A stretch of DNA of 64,000 nt from Lepus europaeus (lineage: Eukaryota > Chordata > Mammalia > Lagomorpha > Leporidae), in the NCBI RefSeq assembly GCF_033115175.1, contig NC_084838.1, positions 62,092,468 through 62,156,467 on the forward strand. The letters are read 5' to 3'. The notes under the pieces are model-generated. The model was not told the origin of the DNA. It made no database searches and was given only the letters and a program-made list of their open reading frames with translations. The position numbers were made by a program, and so were the translations under genes. Below are positions 1-62,950 of this stretch, one piece after another. How positions within the stretch are numbered: position 1 is the stretch's first letter; each line of letters opens with the position of its first letter.

Positions 1-1656
1 ACTCTTGTTTTGAGAAGGCTGTGTATTTGTGAATACTTGGTGATCCTTTTTCCTTCCACCTTCCTCCTCATTATATGCATATTTTCAGAAACAGTCATCC
101 TTGGAAGCTACCTCTTTTTACCTATTATTGATGTGTTAGAAATTATGGTTTTTCAACCAAGTCTACTCTGAGATATTTCGCACTTGAAGTTCTACTCCCC
201 TAAACTTCATGAGCATAAAGGCATTTTATTCTATTCAATACAATTAATAGTTTTATCTTGATTTGGATAGTAAAATATTAACACTGTGCACAGAATAAGC
301 TTGAAGAAATGGTAGTAGTTATCCTAGAAGACATAGAATAATAAAAAGTCAATAGTTTCTTCAAATAGCCATCAATTTTCATTTTTGTGCAGTTGTGTCT
401 TTTTGTTCTGATATTGGATGCAAATCAACTTATACTAAACTTTCCAAAATTTCAGTCATTTTGGGAACACCCTTCATGATGTTTCCCTTATCTTCTAACT
501 GTACTATTAATCACTAAATATTTTTAAAGTAAAATAACTTTTTAACTTAAAAGTGCTTGATTGAGAAATTATACATCAGTGCTTTAAATAGAAACTCAAT
601 AAAATTTGCCATAAATTTGAAATAACTGAGCAAAAGCTATAAATTCTACCCAGATATTAAGGTCTACCAAGGATCAGGACTGGAGGCCCACTCTGTGATA
701 AAAGGAAATTGCAAATGTTATAATGGTATCAAAAACCTAGTGGAAACTATTTCCTGGACTTAAACAAAGATATTTTCATACCTTGATTATGTGATTTAAC
801 ATGAAAGGACTTTTAAAATGCTTGGAAATTTCGCATTATTTTTAACTTCACTTGTCTGTGCATTTACAGAGCCCCTAGTTTTTTGCTAGTGCCTTACCCA
901 TGGCATGTAAAATGATGATCTTACGGTGTGCTCTCTCTGTAAAAATAAATAAATAAATAGATAGATAAAACACTATTAAACCAAAGTCAGTAAGGTTTTG
1001 TTTATGGGACTCTTTTTTTTTTAATATGAAAACCAGTCAATCAATTTCTGTTCTTTAGAGTATACTTGGCTATGGAAGTTGCTAAACATTTCGTTTATAA
1101 TATAATGCTTTCACTGAAATCAGAATTAGGTCATCGTGTCCATTGCCTTCATTTTGGCAATCTGAGTTTGAAATAAAAGACAAATGACATAAATTAATGG
1201 AGTAAAATTAATGTTGTGGTAATATTAAATAAAGCTAATGCCTCTTGCACCTGGAGGGCTATACAGATGGCAGGCATACCTAATTACGCACCCTGCTGCC
1301 TGTAAGTGTACAGATAAAATCTCTCAACTGAATATAAAATATGTTCATTCACTGGCTCCAGAAAGGTATGAGTAAGGCCACACAATACACAAAAGTGGAA
1401 CCTAGAATTCACATTTTTTAGGAAAAAAAAATATAATTCTAGTGGTGGAATGAAATAAGGAAATATTCAGCTGATTTTAAAAATAAGTCATTATTACAGT
1501 TTGGTCTTTGTCTTCCTGTGAAGATTAAAAGTACATGTCAATCCCATTAGAAAAAGCTTACTGTGAAACCAGTAAGGAAGTACTTAAATTTAAGATTATA
1601 TTTTCACTTGCTACATATCAGTGGAAAAGAATAATTTACTATTAAAATCCTGATTT
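1..1656. other. AT-rich DNA, no recognisable feature
   Basis: No gene, RNA or clear repeat seen. There is a short AAAT/AGAT simple repeat around 943-970 and A- or T-runs near 1010 and 1420. All reading frames are short. Confidence 0.6.
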
Positions 1657-2164
1657 AACAAATTGACACTCTTGTTTAAGGCACCAGCAATCTCCCCAGG
1701 CTCTAGTCATGAGTTTCCAAGGCCATGGAAGCCCCCTGAGCTTGCCGACTTTGATCTTTTTTTGACAAGGCCATAGTCAAAGTGGAAGTAGTGTCAATTT
1801 GTTAAGTCAACAACAGGAGTCCCTGTGCACTTACTCCTCACGTAGGATCTCTGTCCTTAATGTGTAGTTCAATGTGAATTAATGCTATCACTAGTGCTCA
1901 AACAGTATTTTGCACTTTGTGTTTTGTTGTGGGTGCAAACTGATGAAATCTTTACTTAATATATACTAAATTGATCTTCTGTATATAAAGATAATTGAAA
2001 ATGAATCTTGATGTCAATGGGATGGGAGAGGGAGCAGGAGATGGGAGGGTTGCTGGTAGGAGGGAAGTTATGGGGGGGAGGAAGCCATTGTAATCTATAA
2101 GCTATACTTTGGAAATTCATATTTACTAAATAAAAGTTAAAAAAAAAAACCCTGAACAAATTGA
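1657..2164 (+). mobile_element. Twin-primed (5'-inverted) L1 3' end
   Basis: About 1791-2150 is an L1 3' UTR end in + orientation, with the G-rich tract (GGGATGGGAGAGGGAGCAGG), AATAAA-like signal and short poly(A). About 1667-1790 is the immediately upstream part of the same 3' UTR in reverse orientation; it matches the complement of roughly 40270-40410 in the full-length L1. AACAAATTGA occurs at 1657-1666 and 2155-2164, each preceded by CCTGA, with a 3-nt indel between. Inverted 5' segment plus direct 3' segment plus flanking duplication is the twin-priming signature. The 3' UTR here lacks the internal duplication of the young L1. Confidence 0.85.
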
Positions 2165-2848: not shown

Positions 2849-3184
2849 AGAGGACCAGAGTTGTGGCCTAGCAGGTAAAGCTGCCACCTGTGATGTTGGC
2901 ATCTCATTTGGGCACCAGTTTGAGTCCTAGCTGCTCCACTTTGATCCAGCTCCCTGTAAATGGCCTAGGAAAAGCAGCAGAGCATGATTTAAGTCTTTGG
3001 GTCTCTGCTACCCAGGTGGGAAATCTGGAAAAAGCTCTTGGCTCCTGGCTTTGGCTTGGCCCATCCCTGGCAGTTGTGGCCAACTTGGAAGTCAACCAGC
3101 AGATGGAAGATCTTTCTCTTCCTCTCTCTCTGTAACTCTGACTTTCAAATAAGTAAATAAATTTAAAATAAATAAACAAAATTA
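2849..3184 (+). repeat. CSINE, tandem behind the previous one
   Basis: Full C repeat with head near 2852, AAATGGCCTAGGAAAAGCAG, GTCAACCAGCAGATGGAAGA, CTCT tract and AAATAA tail. GGAAATCT at 2841-2848 recurs at 3185-3192 and looks like its target-site duplication, so it inserted at the end of the older CSINE. Confidence 0.85.
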
Positions 3185-7035: not shown

Positions 7036-9783
7036 TCCTGTTAATTCTTCTTAATTAGTTAAAACTGCTTCCAAATATAGTCTTTATTATAAATGAAATA
7101 ATTTGCAGTATGAATCTTATTTAATCAAGCCCATTATTTAATCTGGGTATAATATCTATGGACAAACAAGAAATTTTCAAAGAAGTTAGCATTTCAAAAA
7201 ATCAACAAAAAAGAATTAGCATTTCAGCTTGATTTATCACCTTGACTCTTGCCTTATAATAATCAGAATCATCCAGTCTGTTGATCCCTCTTAGAATCAT
7301 GCAATAATAACATATTTCTTCTGTCCTTGGGTTTACAAATCCCTGAAGTCCCCTGAGAAGACGGTAATAGGTAGTAGTGTGAAGCATAAATGAAGTAAAA
7401 CCCAAATCTATATATTGCAGATGAAGTTGATTTTCTGGATTAAATTATCAAGTAAATTAAGCCAATATCACAAACATTTCTGTAGTACAGATTTTGCTAG
7501 AAATATGGTAAAAATAAAGTATAATCCCAACACTGTACACACAGGGTGATGAGTTTAATTACTGATGGTGACAGTACTCTAGTCTCTAGTTTAAAAGCAG
7601 TGTAAGTGGCCTCTTTTTTTTCTTTGCCCGTATCCTGCATGAACACTTTAGAAAGTGAAATGTTTTCTAGAAGTTGATTATGGTTTGGAAGCTCAGTGGC
7701 TATGAAAACATCCTTAGTGGTATCTTGCTCTGTCTTACCTTCTTTTCCCACTAAACTACCCTCTCCCTGTAGAAAGAGTATTGCATATTATTTATATCCC
7801 ATTACAGCAGTTTCCTTGTAGTTCCAACATGCTTTTTGTCCCTCTGGTGTTCTGCAGGAATTTAAAAAAAAAAAATGATTCCTTGCCTCTTCCTGAGTTA
7901 AATTTCTGGAAATGAAAGGGTATAATCTTTGCCTTGGATAAACAAGAAGTAGGCAGTGGCAGTCACTGGCATTATCTCAAGAAGCATCACCACATTAATG
8001 CCTGCAGTTAATAAGTAGACAAAGGCTGAAGGGTGAACTGAGGAAGTGGGGCAAGGGAGTAATCTGGTGTAGGGGTCAGGGAAGGCCCAGATTCCCATGC
8101 TGGTTTACTAGAAAGGCTCGAGGACCACAGTTCCTTCGCAGAATTGCCCGTTTCATTTAGAATTGATGTTTTCAACCCATCCTTATAAACGAACCATCTA
8201 TGGGAGTCAAGAGATCAGAGTAGCAACAAGTCTGTTTTCTCTCTTTCCTTGTACTCTGATCTTCAGTTCTCCATAGCTAGATGGGACATTCCTTATGATC
8301 AAGTCTTTTCTAGCTACAGCTTATTTATCAACTTTTCAATCTTTTTGCTTTCTTATGGATCTCTCCAAATCCCTTATACCCTGGTGTTTATCTAGTAGGA
8401 TTCAAATTTAAGGTTAGTTTTCCTAACATGATCAATGAGTAAACCATAATTTATGTGTAACCCAAATATAAATGGACCATAATTAACGAAGCACAGTTTG
8501 ACAACCAAAAAAATGTAACTAAAGGCTGACTACACATTTATTTCATCTATGATACCTTAGCTGATTTGCCCCTTATCCTTCTTCAAAATAGTTTCACTTC
8601 TGTCTTGTCCTAATCTTCCACATTCAAAGGGGCTTAAAATTCTATCTCCTCCCTACCCTGCTGGCTCATGCCTAAGTACTTCCTCACATTAAGCTTGGCC
8701 CCATTTCTGTATCTTCGAACAGGAGCAACCACTTCTAACGGCCAGGTGTGTCAGGCTGACCTAGACTGCTGGGCGACCCAGACTCTGCATGTACTCCTCA
8801 CCTGTATAGGAGGAAACACAGAGCAGTCCCTAGGAAATTTAATTCAACCCCAACTCTGACCATTTCTCTGCCAGAATCACCCCATTCTGTAAATTCAGTG
8901 TATAAATAAATGAAAACAAGCAAAATTAAAAAAAAGAAAAAACAAAAACAAAAACAAAACCAAACTTTGCTTGGGAAAATGTGTAGATTGGGAAGACAAG
9001 GCAAACATTTGTAAGTAGGTACAGCAAGGTGCACAAGCAGGTGTGGCAGTACAATCACTTGAAATGCAAACAACTCTCTTTTTCTTCTCTCTTTTTCTCT
9101 CTCTCTCTCAATCGAAAATCATTCCTCCCTCCACGCTGCCCAAACAAAGTCTCAAAGTACCTGCCAGTAGAAATGTTACAGGAAAGTCTTGGGTGTCTGA
9201 TGCAGAGAATTTTCACACCTCAAGAATACATCAGAATAAGAGTAAATAAGGGAGAATGAATTGAGTAATGGAAAAAAAAATAAAAGTCCTTAAAGTGGGA
9301 GGTGGGCAAGAAGCTTCTATTGCAAGGAGCACAGTCCAGAGGAAGAGTGCTAAATGATCATCCCTGGTTGCCAGTTCATTCGCAATTGACTCAGTCCCTG
9401 ACTCTGTGCACTTTTCTACTCCATTGCCTGTGTATAACCCACCATCCAACAGGAGGAGTCACTTGTAAGTCCCCCAACTGAGGAAGGGTGAGAGGCATTG
9501 GATGACATTAATGGATTTGGTGACAGGGAAGGAAAGTCTGTAACCTTGATCAGAGGGGTAGTTCATTACCAGCTGGGAAGTTCTCTAACAGCCCGGGCAT
9601 GCAATGTTAGAGTGTATCTCCCACTCCCAGATGGCTTATGTTCCAAAAGTTTCTTTTGGAATAGTTGGGCATGGGAGCATGGTGGTTGGGAATAGAACTT
9701 AGCAGATATTTTACTGAGGCTTCAGTAATGATTAGGCTTCCTGGATCCAGACTGGTTTGTTAAGAAAAGAAACTTTTTCTCTT
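7036..9783. other. Long stretch without a recognisable gene
   Basis: Reading frames are all under 100 codons with no recognisable domain. An A-rich AAAAACAAAAAC run lies near 8926-8962. Parts near 8540-8690 are faintly L2-like but too diverged to call. Confidence 0.5.
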
Positions 9784-20448: not shown

Positions 20449-21402
20449 ACATGAGTTTTTTTTTAACTTTTATTTAATGAATATAAATTTCCAAAGTACA
20501 GCTTATGGATTACAATGGCTTCCCCCCCCCCATAACTTCCCTCCCACCCGCAACCCTCCCCTTTCCCACTCCCTATCCCCTTCCATTCACATCAAGATCA
20601 GTTTATATACAGAAGATCAGTTTAGTATATATTAAGTAAAGATTTCAACAGTTTGCCCCCACATAGCAACACAAAGTGAAAAAATACTGTTGGAGTACTA
20701 GTTATAGCATTAAATAACAGTGTACAGCACATTAAAGACAGAGATCCTACCATGTATCAATGCCATCTCACTAGTCCAAGTGATCAATTTCAGTTCACAA
20801 TTTATCACTCTGATAGGTCTAAGAGTCAAAGGGATCACACAAACAAGACTAGTGTCTGCTAATACTAACTGATAGAATCAAAAAAGGGAAAAAACGATCC
20901 AACATGGGAAGCGGGATACACAGCAGACTCATAGAATGGCAGATGTCCTAAACAGCACTCTAGTCTCAGAATCAGCCCTTAAGGCATTCGGATCTGGCTG
21001 AAGAGCCCATGAGAGGATTGTAGGCATGGAAAACCAAGACACCATGGGGAAAAAAAAAAAAAAAGAAGAAGAAGAAGACCTAAATGAAAGATCTCTGCAA
21101 GTGAGATCCCAGTGGAAAGAATGGGGTCATCAAAGAAGGAGGTACTTTTCTTTGAAGGGAGGAGAGTACTTCCACTTTGACTATGACCCTATCGGAATAA
21201 GATCAGAGTCGGCGAACCCTAAAGGCTTCCATAGCCTTGGCAACTCATGACTAGAGCCTAGGGAGATTACTGACGCCATAAACAAGAGTGTCAAATTGTT
21301 AAATCAACAACAGGAGTCACTGTGTACTTATGTCTCATGTGGGATCTGTCCTTAATGTGTTATCCAATGTGAAGTGATGCTATAGCTAGTACATGAGTTT
21401 TT
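20449..21402 (-). mobile_element. Twin-primed (5'-inverted) L1 insertion
   Basis: 20461-20750 is the L1 3' end in minus orientation, from the poly(A) complement, TTTATTTAATGAATATAAAT and the C-rich tract to GAGATCCTAC. 20751-21389 is upstream 3' UTR in plus orientation, matching 39874-40500 of the full-length L1. TACATGAGTTTTT at 20448-20460 and 21390-21402 flanks both halves. The two halves correspond to the two different copies of the 3' UTR duplication in the young L1. An A/GAA run at about 21050-21078 lies inside. Confidence 0.93.
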
Positions 21403-28379: not shown

Positions 28380-28876
28380 TACAATTGTCATTTTTTTAAA
28401 CTTTTATTTAATGAATATAAATTTCCAAAGTATAGCTTATGGATTACAATGGCTCCCCCCCTATAACTTCCCTCCCACCCGCAACCCTCCCCTTTCCCGC
28501 TCCCTCTCCCCTTCCATTCACATCAAGATTCATTTTCAATTCTCTTTATATACAGAAGATCAATTTAGTTAAGATTTATTTTATTTATTTGAAAGACAGA
28601 ATTACAGAGAGAGGTAGAGAGAGAGGTCTTCCATCTGCTGGTTCACTCCCCAGATGCCTGATCTGAAGCCAGAAGCCAGGAGCTTCTTCCGGGTCTCCCA
28701 CATGGGTGCAGGGACCCAAGGACTTGAGCCGTCTTCTGCTATCCCAGACCATAGTAGAGAGCTGTATCAGAAGAGGAGCAGCCAGGACTAGAACCGGCGC
28801 CCATATGGGATGCCGGTGCTTCAGGCCAGGGCTTTAACCCACTGCACCATAGCGCCAGCCCCTACAATTGTCATTT
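28380..28876 (-). mobile_element. CSINE-L1 chimeric retrotransposon
   Basis: TACAATTGTCATTT at 28380-28393 and 28863-28876 is a single target-site duplication around two joined pieces. 28394-28566 is an L1 3' end, minus orientation, with poly(A) complement and C-rich tract. 28567-28862 is a CSINE, also minus. In sense orientation the order is CSINE, then 5'-truncated L1 3' end, then poly(A). The CSINE has no separate duplication at its inner end (left flank GATCAATTTAGTT). This fits reverse transcriptase switching from L1 RNA onto the 3' tail of a CSINE RNA. Confidence 0.85.
28567..28862 (-). repeat. CSINE part of the chimera
   Basis: AAGATTTATTTTATTTATTT tail complement to ATAGCGCCAGCCCC head complement. 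It lacks about 35 bp in the middle: after CTCCCCAGATG it resumes at CCTGATCTGAAGCC. Confidence 0.9.
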
Positions 28877-33414: not shown

Positions 33415-33438
33415 AGAATTTTACATAGGTAGCGGAGC

Positions 33439-33449
33439 CAAGATGGCGG
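33439..33449 (+). promoter_or_regulatory. YY1-type site at L1 start
   Basis: CAAGATGGCGG lies 8 bases into the element. In human L1 a YY1 site at the same relative position directs the transcription start. Binding here is inferred. Confidence 0.65.
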
Positions 33450-33715
33450 ATAGTGAGGACGTGCGCCATTAGTCTGCGAAAATAAAGTTTCATAAAAGTG
33501 GAATTACTGTAGCCTTAGGAAAAGACTCAAGAAAAAAACTACAGAGGAGACGCCTCCGGATCGAGTGGACGGGACACAGAGGATCTACTGAGAGCCCACT
33601 GCGTGGAAACCCAACCGCGAGAACCGAGCCACAGAGTCTTGCCGGCGCGGGAACCGGGGTAAGACAAAAGCCTCAGAAACTCTCCTCCTCCCGCCTCCGT
33701 CTGCAGCTCTGCCGC

Positions 33716-33746
<31 letters not shown>

Positions 33747-33754
33747 GCGGCGGC

Positions 33755-34257
33755 GCCCTGACCGCCTCTCTCCACGGTCCCAGCCCCGGGGAGCGCGCGC
33801 GGGCACTGCAACGGCGGCGGCGGAGGCGGCGGCGGCGGCGGCGCCCTGACCGCCTCTCTCCACGGTCCCAGCCTCGAGGAGCGCGCGCGGGCACTGCAGC
33901 GGCGGCGGCAGCGGCAGCGACGGCGGCGCCCTGACCGCCTCTCTCCACGGTCCCAGCCCCGGGGAACGCGCGCGGGCACTGCAGCGGCGGCGGCGGAGGA
34001 GGCGGCGGCGGCGGCGGCGGCGCCCTGACCGCCTCTCTCCACGGTCCCAGCCTCGGGGAGCGCGCGCGGGCACTGCAGCGGCGGCAGCGGCAGCGGCGGC
34101 GGCGCCCTGACCGCCTCTCTCCACGGTCACAGCCCCGGGGAGCGTGCGCGGGCACTGCAGCGGCAGCGGCGGCGGCGGGGGCCTCCCGAGCGCCTCCCTC
34201 CACCGCCCCAGTCCCGGGGAGCGCGCGCAGGTACTACAGCGGCGGTGGTGACAGCGG
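33755..34257 (+). repeat. Six GC-rich tandem units in the L1 5' UTR
   Basis: The core GCCCTGACCGCCTCTCTCCA, followed by CGGTCCCAGCC and GCGCGCGCGGGCACTGCAGC, starts at 33755, 33843, 33928, 34022 and 34104. A diverged sixth unit (GCCTCCCGAGCGCCTCCCTC) starts at 34181. Spacings are 88, 85, 94, 82 and 77 bases; most of the difference lies in GGC/GCA triplet runs between cores. An initial triplet run (33712-33754) precedes the first core. Confidence 0.95.
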
Positions 34258-34613
34258 TGGCCGCAGCGATCCTGTGGCCCGGCTGGCCCTAGGCGACAGC
34301 GCCTAAAGAGGAAGATCACGGGAGAAGCCCCAGGTGGTGTCTTGGATCACCAGCTGAGACAAGGCTTCAGGAAAAGATTCAAGGAAAAAACTGCAGAAGA
34401 AACGCTTCCAGATAACCAACTGCGGGAGACGACCCGCAAAATCTACCCAGCGCGCTTTTACACAGCCTTAAACCTCAAGAAACAAGCATAGCTCTCTGGC
34501 CACACCCATCACAGCCCCGAAGGCTCCAACAAAGCAGACAGCTCACTTAGAGGCATAGTATAACGAGAGAAAAAAAAAAAACAAAAACAAAAACACCACA
34601 AATTATCTCTAAC

Positions 34614-35651
34614 ATGCCAAGCAAGAAACATAGAAGCGGAGGTACCAAGAACAAGGAAGGCACTATGACGCCCCCAAGTGAACAGGACACGCCAATGCAA
34701 GATTATGAAGATGAAGACATAGAGGAACTGCAAGAAGCAGATTTCAAAAAATTGATAAGAACATTAAGAAGTTCTCAAAAACAAATTCTTGAACTACAGA
34801 AATCCTTAATGGACAAGATAGAAAATCTCTCCCGTGAAAATGAAATATTAAGGAGGAATCAAAATGAAATGAAAAAACTAATGGAACAGGAATTCTCGAT
34901 AGTGACAAAAAACCACAATGAAATGAAGAACACAATGGATCAAATGGCAAACACATTAGAGAGCCTTAAAAACAGAATGGGTGAAGCAGAAGAGAGAATA
35001 TCGGAATTAGAAGACAGAGAACAGGAAAGGAAACAGTCAAATCAAAGAAAAGAAGAAGAAATTAGAAATCTAAAAAACACTGTCAGGAATCTACAGGATA
35101 CTATTAAAAAAACCAACATTCGGGTTCTAGGAGTTCCTGAAGGCATGGAAAGGGAGAAAGGATTAGAAGGCCTTTTTAGTGAGATACTAGCAGAAAATTT
35201 CCCAGGTTTGGAGAAGGACAGAGACATCCTAGTACAGGAAGCTCAGAGAACCCCTAATAAACATGATCAAAAGAGATCCTCACCACGACACGTCGTAATC
35301 AAACTCACCACAGTGAAACATAAAGAAAAGATCCTAAAATGTGCAAGAGAGAAACGCCAGATTACTCTCAGAGGATCTCCAATTAGACTTACAGCTGATT
35401 TCTCATCAGAAACCCTACAAGCCAGGAGAGAATGGCGAGATATAGCCCAGGTACTAAGAGAGAAAAACTGCCAGCCCAGAATATTATATCCTGCAAAGCT
35501 CTCATTTGTGAATGAAGGTGAAATTAAGACCTTTCACAGCAAACAGAAATTGAAAGAATTTGTCGCCACTCGTCCAGCCCTGCAAAAGATGCTTAAAGAT
35601 GTGTTACATACAGAAACACAGAAACACGGTCACCAATATGAAAGAAGGTAA
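34614..35651 (+). CDS. ORF1p: L1 ORF1 protein (RNA-binding chaperone)
   Basis: 345 aa, intact, close to the human protein's 338. L1 ORF1p is a trimeric nucleic-acid-binding chaperone that coats its own mRNA in a cytoplasmic RNP. Visible layout: basic, Ser/Thr-containing N-terminus ([10 protein letters not shown]); acidic patch at about 30-42; heptad-rich coiled coil at about 43-165, with Leu/Ile/Met spacing and [12 protein letters not shown] near 126; RRM beginning [11 protein letters not shown] at about 167; C-terminal domain at about 263-345 with the conserved REWRDI and YPAKLSF motifs (about 273 and 292). The start has A at -3 and is the first in-frame Met after the UTR. Stop TAA; ORF2 starts 69 bases later. 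No damage seen. Confidence 0.97.
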
Positions 35652-35719
35652 AGGAAGGAAACCTCACAGCAAAAGATCACAGGAATCTCAAACCAGATAT
35701 CAGAAAATATCTTTGGCAA
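35652..35719 (+). other. L1 inter-ORF spacer
   Basis: 68 bases between the ORF1 stop and ORF2 start, with ORF2 in a different frame from ORF1. ORF2 translation in L1 is known to occur by an unconventional, inefficient mechanism; nothing here looks like an IRES to me. Confidence 0.8.
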
Positions 35720-38700
35720 ATGGCAGGGCAAAGTTACTCCTTCTCAATAGTCACATTGAATGTTAATGGCTTGAACTGTCCAGTTAAAAGACACCGATTG
35801 GCGGATTGGGTCAAGGAACAAAACCCATCCTTTTGCTGCCTACAAGAAACCCATCTATCCAACAATGATCCATACAAGCTGAGAGTGAAGGGCTGGAAAA
35901 AGATATACCATGCCAACAGAAATGAAAAGAGAGCGGGCGTAGCCATCTTAATATCAGACAACATAAACTTTACCACAAAAACTGTTAGGAGAGACAAAGA
36001 GGGGCACTATATAATGATTAAGGGATCCATTCAACAGGAAGATATAACGATTATCAACGTATATGCACCTAATTACAGGGCACCAGCTTATTTAAAAGAC
36101 TTGTTAAGGGACTTAAAGGGAGACTTAGACCCCAATACAATAGTACTGGGGGACTTCAATACTCCACTCTCAGAGATAGACAGATCATCAGGACAGAAGA
36201 TCAACAAGGAGACAGTAGATTTAAATGACACTATAGCCCAAATGGATCTAACAGATATCTACAGAACATTTCATCCTACATCTAAGGACTTTACATTCTT
36301 CTCAGCAGTACATGGAACCCTCTCTAGGATTGACCACATACTAGGCCATAAAGCAAGTCTCAGCAAATTCAAAAAAATTAGAATCGTACCATGCAGCTTC
36401 TCAGACCATAAAGGAATGAAATTGGAAATTGGCAACTCAGGAATCCCTAGAGCACGAGCAAACACATGGAGATTGAACAACATGCTCCTGAATGAACAAT
36501 GGGTCATAGAAGAAATTAAAAGAGAAATCAAAAATTTTCTGGAAATAAATGAAGATAACAGCACAACATACCAAAACCTATGGGATACAACAAAAGCAGT
36601 GTTAAGAGGAAAGTTTATATCAATAGGTGCCTACATCAAGAAATTGGAAAGGCACCAAATAGATGAGCTTTCAAGTCACCTCAAGGATCTAGAAAATCTG
36701 CAGCAAACCAAACCTAAACCCAGTAGGAGAAGAGAAATAATTAAAATCAGAGAAGAAATCAACAGGATTGAATCCAAAAAAACATTACAAAAAATCAGCC
36801 AAACGAGGAGCTGGTTTTTTGAAAAAATAAACAAAATTGACACCCCATTGGCCCAACTAACTAAAAAAAGAAGAGAAAAGACCCAAATCAATAGGATCAG
36901 AGATGAAATGGGAAACATAACAACAGATGCCACAGAAATAAAAAGAATCATCAGAAATTACTACAAGGACTTGTATGCCAGCAAACAGGGAAATCTATCA
37001 GAAATGGAAAGATTTTTGGACACATACAACCTCCCAAAATTGAGCCAGGAAGACATAGAAAACCTAAACAGACCAATAACTGACACAGAAATTGAAACAG
37101 TAATAAAGGCCCTCCCAACAAAGAAAAGCCCAGGACCAGATGGATTCACTGCTGAGTTCTACCAGACATTTAGAGAAGAACTAACTCCAATTCTCCTCAA
37201 ACTATTTAGAGCAATCGAAAAAGAGGGAATCCTCCCAAATTCTTTCTATGAAGCCACCATCACCTTAATTCCTAAGCCAGAAAGAGACGCAACATTGAAA
37301 GAGAATTACAGACCAATATCCCTGATGAACATAGATGCAAAAATCCTCAATAAAATTCTGGCCAATAGAATGCAACAACACATCAGAAAGATCATCCACC
37401 CAGACCAAGTGGGATTCATCCCCGGTATGCAGGGATGGTTCAACATTCGCAAAACAATCAACGTAATACACTACATTAACAGACTGCAGAAGAAAAACCA
37501 TATGATTCTCTCAATAGACGCAGAGAAAGCATTTGATAAAATACAACACCCTTTCATGATGAAAACTCTAAGCAAACTGGGTATGGAAGGAACATTCCTT
37601 AATACAATCAAAGCAATATATGAAAAACCCACGGCCAACATCCTATTGAATGGGGAAAAGTTGGAAGCATTTCCACTGAAATCTGGTACCAGACAGGGAT
37701 GTCCTCTCTCACCACTGCTATTCAATATAGTTCTGGAAGTTTTGGCCAGAGCTATTAGGCAAGAAAAAGAAATTAAAGGGATACAAATCGGGAAGGAAGA
37801 ACTCAAACTATCCCTCTTTGCAGATGATATGATTCTTTATTTAGGGGACCCAAAGAACTCTACTAAGAGACTGCTGGAACTCATCGAAGAGTTTGGCAAA
37901 GTAGCAGGATATAAAATCAATGCACAAAAATCAACAGCCTTTGTATACACAGGCAATGCCACGGCCGAGGAAGAACTTCTAAAATCAATCCCATTCACAA
38001 TAGCTACAAAAACAATCAAATACCTTGGAATAAACTTAACCAAAGACGTTAAAGATCTCTACGATGAAAACTACAAAACCTTACAGAAAGAAATAGAAGA
38101 GGATACCAAAAAATGGAGAAATCTTCCATGCTCATGGATTGGAAGAATCAATATCATCAAAATGTCTATTCTCCCAAAAACAATTTATACATTCAATGCA
38201 ATACCCATCAAGATCCCAAAGACCTTCTTCTCAGATCTGGAAAAAATGATGCTGAAATTCATATGGAGACACAGAAGACCTCGAATAGCCAAAGCAATCC
38301 TGTACAACAAAAACAAAGCCGGAGGCATCACAATACCTGAGTTTAGGACATACTACAGGGCAGTTGTTATCAAAACAGCATGGTACTGGTACAGAAACAG
38401 ATGGATAGACCAATGGAACAGAATAGAAACACCAGAAATCAATCCAAACATCTACAGCCAACTTATATTTGACCAAAGATCCAAATCTAAACCCTGGAAT
38501 AAGGACAGCCTATTCAATAAATGGTGCTGGGAAAATTGGATTTCCACATGCAGAAGCTTGAAGCAAGACCCATACCTATCACCTTACACAAAAATTCACT
38601 CAACATGGATTAAAGACTTAAACCTACGACCCGAAACCATCAAATTATTAGAGAGCATTGGAGAAACCCTGCAAGATATAGGCACAGGCAAAGACTTCCT

Positions 38701-39544
38701 GGAAAATACTCCAACAGCACAGGCAGTGAAAACCAAAATTAACTTTTGGGATTGCATCAAATTGAGAAGTTTCTGTACTTCAAAAGAAACAGTCAGGAAA
38801 GTGAAGAGGCAACCAACAGAATGGGAAAAAATATTTGCAAACTATACTACAGATAAAGGATTGATAACCAGAATCTACAAAGAAATCAAGAAAATCCACA
38901 AAAACAGAACAAACAACCCACTTAAGAGATGGGCCAAGGACCTCAATAGACATTTTTCGAAAGAGGAAATCCAAATGGCCAACAGACACATGAAAAAATG
39001 TTCAAGATCACTAGCAATCAGAGAAATGCAAATCAAAACCACAATGAGGTTCCATCTCACCCCGGTGAGAATGGCTCACATTCAGAAATCTACCAACAAC
39101 AGCTGCTGGAGAGGATGTGGGGAAAAAGGAACACTGACCCACTGTTGGTGGGAATGCAAACTGGTTAAGCCACTGTGGAAGTCTGTCTGGAGATTCCTCA
39201 GAAACCTGAACATAACCCTACCATACAACCCAGCCATCCCACTCCTTGGAATTTACCCAAAGGAAATTAATTTGGCTAATAAAAAAGCCATCTGCACATT
39301 AATGTTTATTGCAGCTCAATTCACAATAGCTAAGACCTGGAACCAACCCAAATGCCCATCAACAGTAGATTGGATAAAGAAATTATGGGACATGTACTCC
39401 ATAGAATACTATGCAGCAGTAAGAAACAACGAAACCCAGTCATTTGCAACAAGATGGAGCAATCTGGAAAACATCATGCTGAGTGAATTAAGCCAGTCCC
39501 AAAGAGAAAAATATCATTTGTTTTCCCTGATCGGTGACAACTGA
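35720..39544 (+). CDS. ORF2p: L1 ORF2 protein (endonuclease and reverse transcriptase)
   Basis: 1274 aa, intact (human 1275). It nicks target DNA and reverse-transcribes L1 RNA from the nick (target-primed reverse transcription), and also mobilises SINEs such as CSINE in trans. APE-type endonuclease at about 1-240: N14 (LNVNGL), E43 (LQETHL), D145 and N147 (LGDFN), D205 (RIDHIL), D229-H230 (SDHK). All are present at the human numbering. Reverse transcriptase at about 440-780: SPGPDGF, D600 (SIDAEKAFD), [13 protein letters not shown], and D702-D703 in FADD. C-terminal Cys-rich motif C-x3-C-x7-H-x4-C at about 1129-1146. Ends at TGA in ...SLIGDN. The start codon is in [10 protein letters not shown], and two earlier residues of context (GCAAATGG) give A at -3. 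No stop, frameshift or missing catalytic residue found. Confidence 0.98.
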
Positions 39545-40445
39545 GCGCCAAAGGGGAAACCTATTAAATGAACACTATAAGCAACAATGAACTGATCAGC
39601 TCCTGTCCTGACTTTAGATGTACAATGTAATATTTTATCCTTTTTGGTATTTGCTGTTATTGTTGTTGTTCTAGTACTGTTGGTTGAACTCAGTAATTAA
39701 CACACAATTATTCTTAGGTGTTTAAATTTAACTGAAAAGAGATCCCTGTTAAATCTAAGAGTGGAAAAAGAGGGGGAGGAGAGGAACAATTTGGAACATG
39801 CTCAATCGGACTGGCCGCAAATGGTGGAGTTGGAAATGTGCCAGGGGATTCCAACACAATCCCATCAGGATGGCATGTACCAATGCCATCGCACTAGTCC
39901 AAGTGATCAATTTCAGCTCACAATTGATAGCTCTGATAGCCCTAAGAGTCAAAGAGATCACACAAACAAGACAAGTATCTGCTAATACTAACTGATAGAA
40001 TCAAAAAGGGAGAGAAAGATCCAACATGGGAAGTGGGATACACAGCAGACTCATAGGATGGCAGATGTCCTAAACAACACTCTGGCCTCAGAATCAGCCC
40101 TCAGGGCATTCAGATCTGGCTGAAGAGCCCATGAGAGTATAGCAGGCATGGAAAGCCAAGATACCATGGAAAAAAAAAAAAAAGACCTAAATGAATGATC
40201 TCTGTGAGTGAGATCCCAGTGGAAAGAACGGGGCCATCAAAGAAGGAGGTACCCTTCTCCGAAGGGAGGAGAGAACCTCCACTTTGACTATGACCCTATC
40301 GGAATAAGATCAAAGTCAGCGAACTCTAAAGGCTTCCATAGCCCTGGCAACTCATGACTAGAGCCTAGGGAGATTACTGATGCCATGAACAGGAGTGTCA
40401 AATTGTTAAGTCAGCAACAGGAGTCACTGTGTACTTACACCCCAT

Positions 40446-40870
40446 GTGGGATCTGTCCCTAATGTGTCGTTTAAAGCCAAGTGATGCTATGACTGGTACT
40501 GAAACAGTATTTTTATACTTTGCGTTTCTGTGTGGGCGCAGACTGATGAGGTCTTTGCTAATTATAGACTGAAGTGATCTTCTGTATATAAAGAGAATTG
40601 GAAACGAAAAAAAAAAAAAAAAGGAAGGAAAAAAAAAAAAAAAAAAACAACCTGGTGTTAAAATGGAAATGGCATAGAAAATTAATTAATTTGAAAAAAA
40701 TTTTTGTAGGATCTCTGTCTTTAATGTGCTGTACATTGCGATTTAATGCTATAATTAGTAATCCAATGGTAGTTTTTTCACTTGATGTTGCTATGTGGGC
40801 AAAATGTTGAAATCTTTACCTAATGTATACTAAACTGATCTTCTGTATATAAAGAGAATTGAAAATGAAT
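40446..40870 (+). repeat. Partial tandem duplication in the L1 3' UTR
   Basis: Copy A, 40446-40606, and copy B, 40706-40870, both run from GTGGGATCTGT/GTAGGATCTCTGT to GATCTTCTGTATATAAAGAGAATTG. They are diverged from each other (for example GTGATGCTAT against TTTAATGCTAT). A-rich sequence and about 60 bases of AT-rich DNA lie between them. Older L1 ends at 1791-2150 and 52705-53460 have only one such block. Confidence 0.85.
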
Positions 40871-40882
40871 CCTTACACGAAT

Positions 40883-40930
40883 GGAGGGAGAGGGGGAGCG
40901 GGAGGGGGGAGGGTTGCGGGCGGGAGGGAA
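40883..40930 (+). other. G-rich polypurine tract of L1 3' UTR
   Basis: Runs GGGAGAGGGGGAGCGGGAGG and GGGGGGAGGG give more than four closely spaced G-runs, able in principle to form a G-quadruplex. This is a conserved feature of mammalian L1 3' UTRs. Confidence 0.8.
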
Positions 40931-40992
40931 GTTATGCGAGAGGGGAAGCCATTGTAACCCATAAACTATACTTTGGAAATTTATATTCATTA

Positions 40993-41004
40993 AATAAAAG
41001 TTTA

Positions 41005-41058
<54 letters not shown>
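40993..41058 (+). other. L1 polyadenylation signals and poly(A) tail
   Basis: AATAAA at 40993-40998 and 41004-41009, followed by an essentially uninterrupted A tail to 41058. Tail length supports youth; assembly may have changed it. Confidence 0.9.
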
Positions 41059-41061
<3 letters not shown>

Positions 41062-41075
41062 ATTTTACATAGGTA

Positions 41076-52690: not shown

Positions 52691-52699
52691 TGGAGCTTA

Positions 52700-53315
52700 T
52701 TTTTTATAAAAAGCTTTTATTTAATAAATATAAATTTTGTTAAGTACAACTTTTGGATCATAACTGTTCTTCCCCCTATACCCGCCCTCCCACCTCCTAC
52801 TCCCTCTCTCATCCCATTCTTTGTTAAGATTCATTTTTAATTATTTTTATATACAGACGATCAACTCTATATTAAGTAAAGATTTTAACAGTTTGCACCC
52901 ACACAGACAATAAAGTATAAAGTACTGGTTGAAGACTATTTTACCATTAATTCTCATAGTACAACACATTAAGGACAGAGATCCTACATGGGGAGCAAGT
53001 GTACAGTGACTTCTATTGTTGAGTTAACAATTGACAAACTTGGGGCCGGCGCCGTGGCTCACTTGGTTAATCCTCCATCTGCGGCGCTGTCATCCCATAT
53101 AGGCACTGGGTTCTAGTCCCGGTTTTTCCTCTTCCAGTCCAGCTCTCTGCTGTGGCCCAGGAGGGCAGTGGAGGATGGCCCAAGTGCTTGGGCCATGCAC
53201 CTGCGCCCCGCACCTGCATGGGAGACCAGGAGGAAGCACCTGGCTCCTGGCTTCGGATCGGCACGATGCGCCAGCCGCAGCGGCCATTGGAGGGTGAACC
53301 AACGGCAAAGGAAGA

Positions 53316-53360
<45 letters not shown>

Positions 53361-53465
53361 AACTCTACCTGTCAAATAAAAAAAATTGACACTCTTATTT
53401 ATGACATCAGTAATCACCTGAGGCTTTTGTCATGAGCTGCCAAGGCTATGGAATTTATTTTTTAC
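52700..53465 (-). mobile_element. L1 3' end, antisense, split by a CSINE
   Basis: AAGCTTTTATTTAATAAATA, the C-rich tract (CCCGCCCTCCCACCTCCTAC), GTACAACACATTAAGGACAG and, after the CSINE, GACACTCTTATTTATGACAT to CTGCCAAGGCTATGGAA. This is an older relative of the young L1 3' UTR with one copy of the duplicated block. Confidence 0.85.
53042..53383 (+). repeat. CSINE inside the L1 3' end
   Basis: GGGGCCGGCGCCGTGGCTCA head and CTACCTGTCAAATAAAA tail. AATTGACAAACTT (53029-53041) and AATTGACACTCTT (53384-53396) are a slightly diverged duplication. CT tract 53320-53351. Confidence 0.93.
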
Positions 53466-59685: not shown

Positions 59686-60735
59686 TGTTTTAGCTTCCAT
59701 ATTGGAGGAAGAAAGTGTGGTATTTGCCTGCATCTGACTTACTTCACTCAACATGATGTCCTCCAGATCCATCAATTTTCCTGAAAATGGCAAGATTTCA
59801 TTCTTTTGTATTGCTGAATGGTATTCCATTATGTACATATGCCACATTTTCTTTGTCCATTCACCTGATGATGGATACATTGGTTTATTCCATATCTTGG
59901 CTATTGTGAAGAGAGGTGTAGTATACATGGTGGGCTATTTATCACTTTGATCTAATGATTTATATCTTACAGATTTATACCCTGTATGGCAGTTCTATTT
60001 CTTACTTTATTTTTAAAAAATGCATATTATTTTCACTGTTGCCGAAATAATTTACATTTCTATCAACAAGTATGAAAGTGTTCCCTTTTCTCCATATCCT
60101 CATCAGTTTTTGTGAGTTTCTGTCTTTTTGATAATATCCATTCTAACAAGGGTGATGTGATATCTCATTGTGACTTTGACTTGCATTTCCTTGATGGCAA
60201 GTGGTTTTGAGCATTTTTTTCATATCTATTGGCCATCTGTATTTCTTCTATTTTTATTTTTATTTATTTTTCTTTTAGTGTATTTCTTCTTTTGAGAACT
60301 CTCTATTCAGATCCTTTCCTCATTTCTTAACTGGATTAGTAGTTTTCTGGTTATTGAGTTATATTGAATTTCTGATGCATTCTAAATATAAACATTTTTC
60401 ATATAGGTAGCTTGCAAATACATTTTCCCATTCTATCTAATGTCTCTTCACTGTGTTTATTGTTGTCTAGGCTGTACAGAATCTTCTGAGTTTAATATAA
60501 TCCTATTTATCTAGTTTTACTTGTTGCTTGTGTTTTGGAGGTCTTCTCCAAAAAATCATTGCCTACAACAATCTCTTGAAATGTTTGCATATGTTTTTTT
60601 ATAGCAAATTTATGGTTTCTGGTCTTATATTTAGGTCTTTGATACATCTTCAATTGATTATTTTTTATGTGATGAGAGGCAGGGATCTAATTTAACTCTT
60701 TTACATAACATATATCCAGCTTTGCCAGCATTATT
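59686..60735 (-). mobile_element. Old antisense L1, ORF2 C-terminal region
   Basis: The minus strand still encodes an L1 ORF2 C-terminal fragment (59644-59928) with WTKKMWHMYIMEYHSAIQKN and DLEDIMLSEVSQ, parallel to the end of the intact ORF2. Further right, TTGACTTGCATTTCCTTGAT, TTTTGAGAACTCTCTATTCA and GTGATGAGAGGCAGGGATCT continue the reverse complement of ORF2. Beyond the fragment the frame is broken. Confidence 0.8.
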
Positions 60736-60739
60736 TATT

Positions 60740-61112
60740 TATTTTATTATTTTTAAATTTTTTTATTTTTATTTTTTATTTTTGACAGGCAGAGTGGACA
60801 GTGAGAGAGAGAGACAGAGAGAAAGGTCTTCCTTTTGCCATTGGTTCACCCTCCAATGGCCGCCGCGGTAGGCGCGCTGCGGCTGGCGCACCGTGCTGAT
60901 CCGATGGCAGGAGCCAGGTGCTTCTCCTGGTCTCCCATGGGGTGCACGTCCCAAGCACTTGGGCCATCCTCCACTGCACTCCCGGGCCACAGCAGAGAGC
61001 TGGCCTGGAAGAGGGGCAACCGGGACAGAATCTGGTGCCCCGACCAGGACTAGAACCCGGTGTGCCAGCGCCGCAAGGCAGAGGATTAGCCTAGTGAGCC
61101 GTGGCGCCGGCC
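60740..61112 (-). repeat. Young CSINE, antisense
   Basis: A long (TTTTA)-rich tail complement (60735-60783), TTTTTGACAGGCAGAGTGGA, GCCGCCGCGGTAGGCGCGCT, and CCGTGGCGCCGGCC. It is very like the copy at 46527-46871. Duplication not resolved. Confidence 0.92.
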
Positions 61113-62099
61113 TAAGTATACTATTTTAGACATGTAATTGCTTGCTTGCTTCTACATTTTTCCTCATTCCACCATGCAGAAATTTCCATTTTTTTTTTCT
61201 TCGGCTCCTTGTATATACATAGGCTCATGTCTACCTAACTACCTTAACATTTCCCCCTTAAGTGGAATAACCTATAATCTTACAGGGGTAACATGGATGG
61301 AGGTCCATCTTGTGTTTTTTTTTTCAGAGCTGACATATGGGAATAGAACTGCTTACAGGTATTCTTCTGCTCTCTGTTCAATGGTTTTGGGGTGGCCTAG
61401 GAAAAGTTGGTCTTGTGCAGTCCAGAGTTCTGGTCACACAGTACAACAGGATAGACTGGAAGCCCTGCCTCATCTGGAGCTAGCTGGCTTTTATTCTTTT
61501 AGAAACAAAATACTTAAAGTATAAATAGAAACTGTGAGAGTGTGGGAAAAATAGCAACCAGGATCTCCACAATCCAGTATTGGGCCAGAAATTCCAGCCC
61601 TGTTCAGCCTTGGCTGTCCTGGAGTTATCTGGCCTCATTCAAGAAATGGTGAATATGGTTGTGTACCTGTCTAGTTTGACCCATAGGACACAGTCTTAGA
61701 GCATGGAACACATGCCCCTTGGGCAGAAGTTAGCATGTATAACTATCTGCCTGTTTGGAGGGTTGGGTTTCACAACCCCAACCCAGGGTCCATAATCAAG
61801 ATGGTATTCCACTGGGCAAAGGCTGTGTTTTGGTCTTTCCCAAAAAGAGGGGGCCCTCTTCACTTTGATATGAGAACTTTGCTATTTTCCTATACCTAGG
61901 GACCAATAATCTATTAATCTTAGATATACCAGAACTGTCTTCAGGTTATAGGAATAGGAATGTGCTACATAGCCTGTATCCTCCCTGTGGCCTATCTCTG
62001 TTTCTAAGAGGTGAGGACCAACTCCAAATAATTAACTTCCTGGCTGATTAACTGTGCTTTCTTCTTGGATATCCAGTATCCATGATTTACTTGGAATTT
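61113..62099. other. No firm feature
   Basis: Mixed-complexity DNA. A 128-codon frame (61138-61524) has no recognisable domain. It may be further L1 5' sequence, but I cannot show it. Confidence 0.4.
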
Positions 62100-62950
62100 A
62101 AGAATGTTAATTAAGTGCCCAAGATCAGAGCCTTGTCCTTAGCTTTTGATAATTTGACTATAATGTGGCTTTCAGAAGGTTTTTTTTTTTTTGTTCCAGT
62201 TGGGTTATCCTATATCAGGATATTTATGTCTCTTTCAAGACTTGGGAATTTTTCAACTATTATTTTATCCAGTAAGTTAATTCCTTTTTCCTTCTATTCC
62301 CCATCAGGTAGTCATACACTATGAATACTTGTTCACGTAGTAGTATCCCTTATGTCTTCTTCATTCTTTTTAATTCTTTTTTCTATGTTTTTGTCAGACC
62401 AGGTTATTTCAGCAATCTTGACCTTCAGGTCAGAAATACTTTCCTCTGCTTGATATTTTTGTTGTTAAAACTCTCAGTTGTACTTTTTTATCTCATTGAT
62501 TGAAATTTCCAGTTCCAAAATTTCTCATGTTTTTATTGACTTCTATCTTGAAGTTCTCATTTGTACCATGTTTTTTTCTTCATTTAAACTGGTTGCATTC
62601 ACTTGCATCTTACTGAGTTTCATTAAATTATTATTTTGTATTCTTTTTCAGGCATCTCATATATTTTCTTTAAATCAGAATCTATTTCTGGAGAACTGTT
62701 GTGTTGTTTTGAGGGTATCATGCTTCATTGCTTTTTTATGTTTCCTGTGAACATCTTGGTAACATTTCCTTCTTCTTTATGGTGTAGGCTTCATTGGAAA
62801 AGACATTTTTGTTTGGATGGGACGTGGGGTATCCCTTGAGTTGTTGCTTTGGCTTTTGTTTTTGGTAAGCCCAGAAGGGTAACCTCCTAGTGATTTCTTC
62901 AGCTTTATCAATGTCAGCAGTGTGTCACAGTTGTATAATCTGCAGCAGGT
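62100..62950 (-). mobile_element. Old antisense L1, 5' region
   Basis: TTTTATCCAGTAAGTTAATT, TATTCCCCATCAGGTAGTCA, TTGACCTTCAGGTCAGAAAT, TCTCAGTTGTACTTTTTTAT and ATCTATTTCTGGAGAACTGT follow the reverse complement of mammalian L1M 5' sequence. Frames of 60-90 codons on the plus strand are incidental. Confidence 0.55.

Follow-up and report, generated by a model that had tools for sequence, protein, structure and literature searches.

A very young, structurally complete L1 element in a leporid genome, most likely that of a hare

The window, i.e. the whole stretch of 64,000 nucleotides analysed here, contains a complete L1 element. With high confidence we consider it a recent insertion, complete in structure, that belongs to the youngest of the L1 subfamilies seen in this leporid. 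Its body spans positions 33432-41006 (this and all following features lie on the + strand unless indicated otherwise), is followed by 53 A, and is enclosed by two copies of a 17-bp target-site duplication. Together with both duplication copies, the locus occupies C14:62125882-62133542. It is an ordinary L1, very young and apparently complete, and not a new kind of element. The preliminary description had presented it as a full-length L1 with both ORFs and a set of named catalytic residues intact, with a preserved tail and CpG-rich 5' UTR, and with an exact target-site duplication; all of these points were borne out, and no evidence contradicting the anatomy was found.

Anatomy, proteins and close relatives

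The 5' UTR (33432-34613) has a GC content of 66% and 132 CpGs, and its CpG observed/expected ratio of 1.03 compares with 0.21-0.39 in the ORFs and the 3' UTR and with 0.16-0.19 in the flanks. It opens with GCGGAGCCAAGATGGCGG and carries, at the extreme 5' end of the element, the start block CCAAGATGGCGG (33438-33449), which resembles a YY1 site; it also has a GC-rich array (33755-34245) composed of five units of 76-94 bp and a divergent last one. At the opposite end, the 3' UTR (39545-41006) directly follows ORF2 and includes one stretch rich in A (40607-40647) and another rich in G (about 40881-40930, delimited by eye). The A tail (41007-41059) is a pure run of 53 A, the last of which possibly belongs to the target-site duplication. 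The 3' UTR also contains a degenerate internal duplication (40452-40608 and 40714-40869, 71.5% identical), as if a second 3' end had extended an old one, and the A-rich stretch between its two halves differs in length among copies.

ORF1 (34614-35651, 345 codons) and ORF2 (35720-39544, 1274 codons) contain no stops. The ORF1 protein comprises an RBD-like domain (residues 167-262) and a dsRBD-like domain (residues 266-329), both of the L1 type, and matches the Pfam families Transposase_22 and Tnp_22_dsRBD, while the ORF2 protein matches RVT_1 and Exo_endo_phos. The latter combines an L1-type APE-like endonuclease (residues 1-237; 35720-36430) with a reverse transcriptase (residues 517-773; 37268-38038) and a C-terminal C-X3-C-X7-H-X4-C motif (residues 1129-1146; 39104-39157). 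All catalytic residues named in the preliminary description were found (N14, E43, D145, N147, D205, D229 and H230 in the endonuclease, and D600, D702 and D703 in the reverse transcriptase), together with Y115, T192, S228 and the FADD motif at residues 700-703. Among proteins of solved structure, the nearest are L1 ORF2p, with an alignment that spans residues 1-1274 (8uw3 and 8sxt, which we take to be human LINE-1 ORF2p; the alignment to 8uw3 runs from end to end), and L1 ORF1p, aligned over residues 116-341 (2ykp, presumably human ORF1p). The element thus resembles human LINE-1 in having two ORFs, in the end-to-end alignment of the endonuclease, reverse transcriptase and Cys motif of ORF2p, and in the aligned part of ORF1p.

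Of the 2724 first-look candidates found with the 147-base 3' end of the element, 40 were scored, the window included, and none of these 40 is less than 99% identical. From the 39 other matches, 20 were retrieved at full length: three cover the whole element, two have their 5' end within the array, and the remaining 15 are cut back further, an inverted 5' piece being present in four of these 15. The five long relatives, namely the three complete copies and the two that begin in the array, encode an ORF1 protein identical to that of the window element (345/345) and a nearly identical ORF2 protein (1270-1273/1274). Over the 6393 bp that begin with ORF1 and extend to the 3' end, 10-17 substitutions separate each of them from the window element; these counts skip the A-rich stretch at element positions 7176-7222, although its 47 positions are included in the denominators.

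Of the 36 ORF2 loci scored (228,405 first-look candidates), 35 have an open frame and one carries a TGA. When these 36 loci were paired with the first 36 of 117 ORF1 matches, both ORFs were open in at least 23; the other 13 comprise one locus with the ORF2 stop, one with stops in ORF1 and 11 lacking an ORF1 match, for which no partners were found by eye among the other 81 ORF1 matches. The count of 23 is a lower bound, and the underlying lists of loci favour intact copies. A less biased sample consists of the 15 best matches to the part of the 5' UTR that adjoins ORF1: all are 99-100% identical over the whole query, and in all 15 both ORFs are open. The 16th (C13:116889444; 99% identical) covers query positions 9-368, scores lower than two matches of 98% and one of 97% identity, and was assigned to the older copies; it has an open ORF1, and its ORF2 lies outside the 36 scored loci. 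The window element belongs to the youngest subfamily by its top-scoring 5' UTR match (99-100%) and its two open ORFs, and it is one of many intact copies, not an exceptional one. This leporid genome, probably that of a hare, hence harbours a recently amplified L1 subfamily, and both ORFs are open at no fewer than those 23 L1 loci.

L1 relatives from outside the genome were found neither among plasmids or phages, at megablast sensitivity, nor in genome_contigs. One IMG/VR contig (IMGVR_UViG_3300006201_000159) encodes a 64% identical L1 ORF2 and probably represents animal DNA that was placed in a viral collection by mistake. Neither this element nor hare L1 subfamilies were described among the literature matches listed.

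The window element as a possible source of other copies

The 3' UTR variant A at position 40941, searched for as an exact 35-base pattern, occurs at only two places in 2.93 Gb, namely in the window and on contig C8. The copy on C8 is 5'-truncated and starts at element position 3130; no clear target-site duplication was found around it. It also has in common with the window a G at 39773, where nine of ten covering copies differ. Being truncated, the C8 copy is excluded as the parent; either the window element is the parent and was changed later, or that role falls to a third copy, which would be either missing from the assembly or altered within the 35-base pattern. Since the C8 copy lacks four variants of the window (38341, 39136, 39175 and 40104), parentage of the window element requires that these arose in the window afterwards, the alternative being a shared third parent; the C8 copy has two substitutions of its own. 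No 3'-transduced daughter was seen, the 3' flank of the window having no other high-identity match in the assembly. On this modest evidence, the window element may have given rise to one daughter, the truncated copy on C8.

As the 5' UTR, both ORFs and the tail are kept, the element is probably able to move. It is nonetheless a distinct possibility that the copy is complete yet dead or silenced, by a missense change or by promoter methylation, and that its relative on C8 came from another parent. In favour of this are the one to four nonsynonymous ORF2 codons by which the window element differs from the five long relatives, and the four window variants absent from the C8 copy. Against it are the intact catalytic residues, the ORF1 protein identical to that of the relatives, and the fact that the shared variant has no full-length carrier other than the window element. 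The earlier proposal of a candidate source element stands in part: it gains from the two variants shared with one truncated copy, but the special status it implied was overstated, given the number of other loci with both ORFs open. We regard as unlikely a stronger version, according to which this is a live source element in a hare, the only full-length carrier of the variant of a two-member sub-lineage, and the leporid 5' UTR joins a start block of human type with a CpG-rich array further inside that can likewise seed 5' ends.

Start block and internal array of the 5' UTR

The GCGGAGCCAAGATGGCGG block forms the 5' start in 13 of 15 young copies, the window included, and in the other 12 of these 13 it is preceded by at least one extra G, hence the window copy lacks at most a few bases of its full length. 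The number of array units is equal in all 13 copies and their lengths differ by 3-9 bases, with the exception of L026, in which one unit is 21 bases shorter. The two remaining young copies, L020 and L025, begin within the array, directly after their duplication and at the same unit phase, CGCCCTGACC.

An older sample comprised 20 of 21 other loci that have the whole or nearly the whole of the 5' UTR part. Twelve of the 20 possess the start block (among them L047 and L057, which represent a single duplicated locus) and eight do not, and in five of these eight the junction lies inside the array, at offsets of -3 (L062, read by eye), +8, +18, +47 and +54 from the CGCCCTGACC phase. Altogether, four of seven array junctions fall within 10 bases of that phase (0, 0, -3 and +8), for which the binomial chance is about 0.07, with the phase chosen after the data were seen. 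It might be proposed from the common phase of L020 and L025 and from this clustering that array units can themselves initiate transcription, as the monomers of mouse elements do; however, 13 of the 15 young copies begin upstream of the array, the clustering is weak, and a CGG run ends at the CGCCCTGACC phase, so that stalling of reverse transcription at CGG runs, an equally good explanation of the array 5' ends, would also put ends there. We consider such internal starts rather improbable and did not adopt a fixed start inside the array.

The 5' UTR bears comparison with two known systems. The block at the 5' end, with CCAAGATGGC, resembles the start of human LINE-1, which is not known to have a counterpart of the GC-rich array of 76-94 bp units. 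Mouse L1Md elements (Tf, Gf and A) are described as having tandem CpG-rich 5' UTR units, or monomers, that contain start sites, vary in number and lie upstream of a nonmonomeric region (PMC10620060, PMC6454616). Tandem CpG-rich units in the 5' UTR are a feature in common with the element studied here. The mouse monomers differ from the present array in their length (about 200 bp versus 76-94 bp), in their number, which varies between copies whereas it is constant in the 13 young copies here, and in their position, since they precede the nonmonomeric region whereas here the start block is upstream of the array.

The array is covered on the opposite strand by an open reading frame of 244 codons (33585-34319, - strand), which was considered as an ORF0-like gene and rejected. 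It has a GTG start, reads like translated CGG repeats and has no Pfam match at E 0.001. Because the lengths of the units mostly differ between copies by multiples of 3, such a frame tends to persist, and it looks like a by-product of composition.

The two older loci mentioned above as duplicates, L057 (C44:11052602-11052966, + strand) and L047 (C44:18317535-18317902, - strand), have a common 5' flank in opposite orientation and are 99.5% identical over the 1301 bases of flank and 5' UTR compared, which indicates an inverted duplication on the 33.6-Mb contig C44. This contig is perhaps a sex chromosome.

Insertion site, age and host

The target-site duplication AGAATTTTACATAGGTA is exact (33415-33431 and 41059-41075); 16 of its 17 bp are unambiguous, because the first A cannot be distinguished from the A tail, and the motif occurs nowhere else in the window. 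Tail and duplication have the form expected of target-primed reverse transcription (TPRT). The insertion site, TTCT/GT, is a degenerate match to the consensus site of the L1 endonuclease, which is TTTT/AA-like. By this route, transcription of a genomic parent would have begun at its 5' end and run across both ORFs as far as the poly(A) tail. This RNA would have been bound by ORF1p and ORF2p, and ORF2p would have nicked the bottom strand at TTCT/GT within an old repeat copy; the nick would then have served to prime cDNA, and the 17-bp duplication would have arisen once the second strand was completed.

Analysis of the flanks agrees with a genuine insertion. For the left as for the right flank, the only full-length match in the assembly is the window itself, and the remaining matches (29 for the left and 12 for the right flank) are partial and at most 89% identical. 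A query made of the two flanks joined after removal of the element gave 40 scored matches out of 77 first-look candidates, of which 30 are other copies of the old repeat, unbroken across the junction (71-76% identity), two are the window's own halves, and eight cover one side only, or one side with part or all of the duplicated site. As the old-repeat copies continue without a break across the junction, the element interrupts an old repeat, as a real insertion should. No near-identical empty site was found in this single assembly. Older L1 fragments also occur around the young element (window positions 1650-2149, 20456-21392, 28391-28569, 52697-53453 and 59728-62452), recognised by a DNA identity of about 64-89% or by weaker matches at the protein level.

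The age of the insertion was estimated by comparison with other L1 copies, for which 18 of the 20 were used (L011 and L017, which retain just the last 170 and 148 bases, were omitted). The window element has five private substitutions, in ORF2 and the 3' UTR, each relative to all compared copies that cover it (5, 8, 9, 9 and 11 copies). At an assumed rate of 2.2e-9 per site per year, five substitutions correspond to about 0.36 Myr, and the upper bound under a Poisson model lies near 0.8 Myr; over about 6.4 kb, this suggests an age well under 1 Myr. The value is to be read as an order of magnitude only, as it depends on the assumed rate and as some of the five substitutions may also be present in copies outside the sample. 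The many near-identical copies invite mis-assembly or conversion, yet it is very improbable that the locus holds an old L1 whose intactness is due to gene conversion or to assembly collapse onto young copies, given the exact duplication, the pure run of 53 A, and private substitutions of its own.

The preliminary description had taken the host for a rabbit, and this was not confirmed. The albumin exons find their best match in 4f5v and 3v09, which we take to be rabbit albumin (370/393 residues or 94.1% identical, i.e. 23 differences, counted by eye), and the transferrin exons match 1jnf, presumably rabbit transferrin (274/283 or 96.8% identical, i.e. nine differences, counted by eye). These differences seem too many for Oryctolagus and would fit another leporid, most likely a hare; should the matches be gene duplicates of a leporid and not true orthologs, this would have to apply to both genes. 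Leporid-type SINE matches are present in the window (10 with at most three mismatches to the motif, versus 0.01 expected). The element is a lagomorph L1 like L1Oc, the rabbit L1 reportedly described by Price et al. in 1992, in Genomics 14:320; it differs in that its host is probably not Oryctolagus cuniculus or another Oryctolagus. The reassignment alters the design of an empty-site test, since asking whether the insertion is absent in hares means something else when the host itself is probably a hare. With its unique flanks and private variants, the locus can be genotyped for presence or absence of the element.
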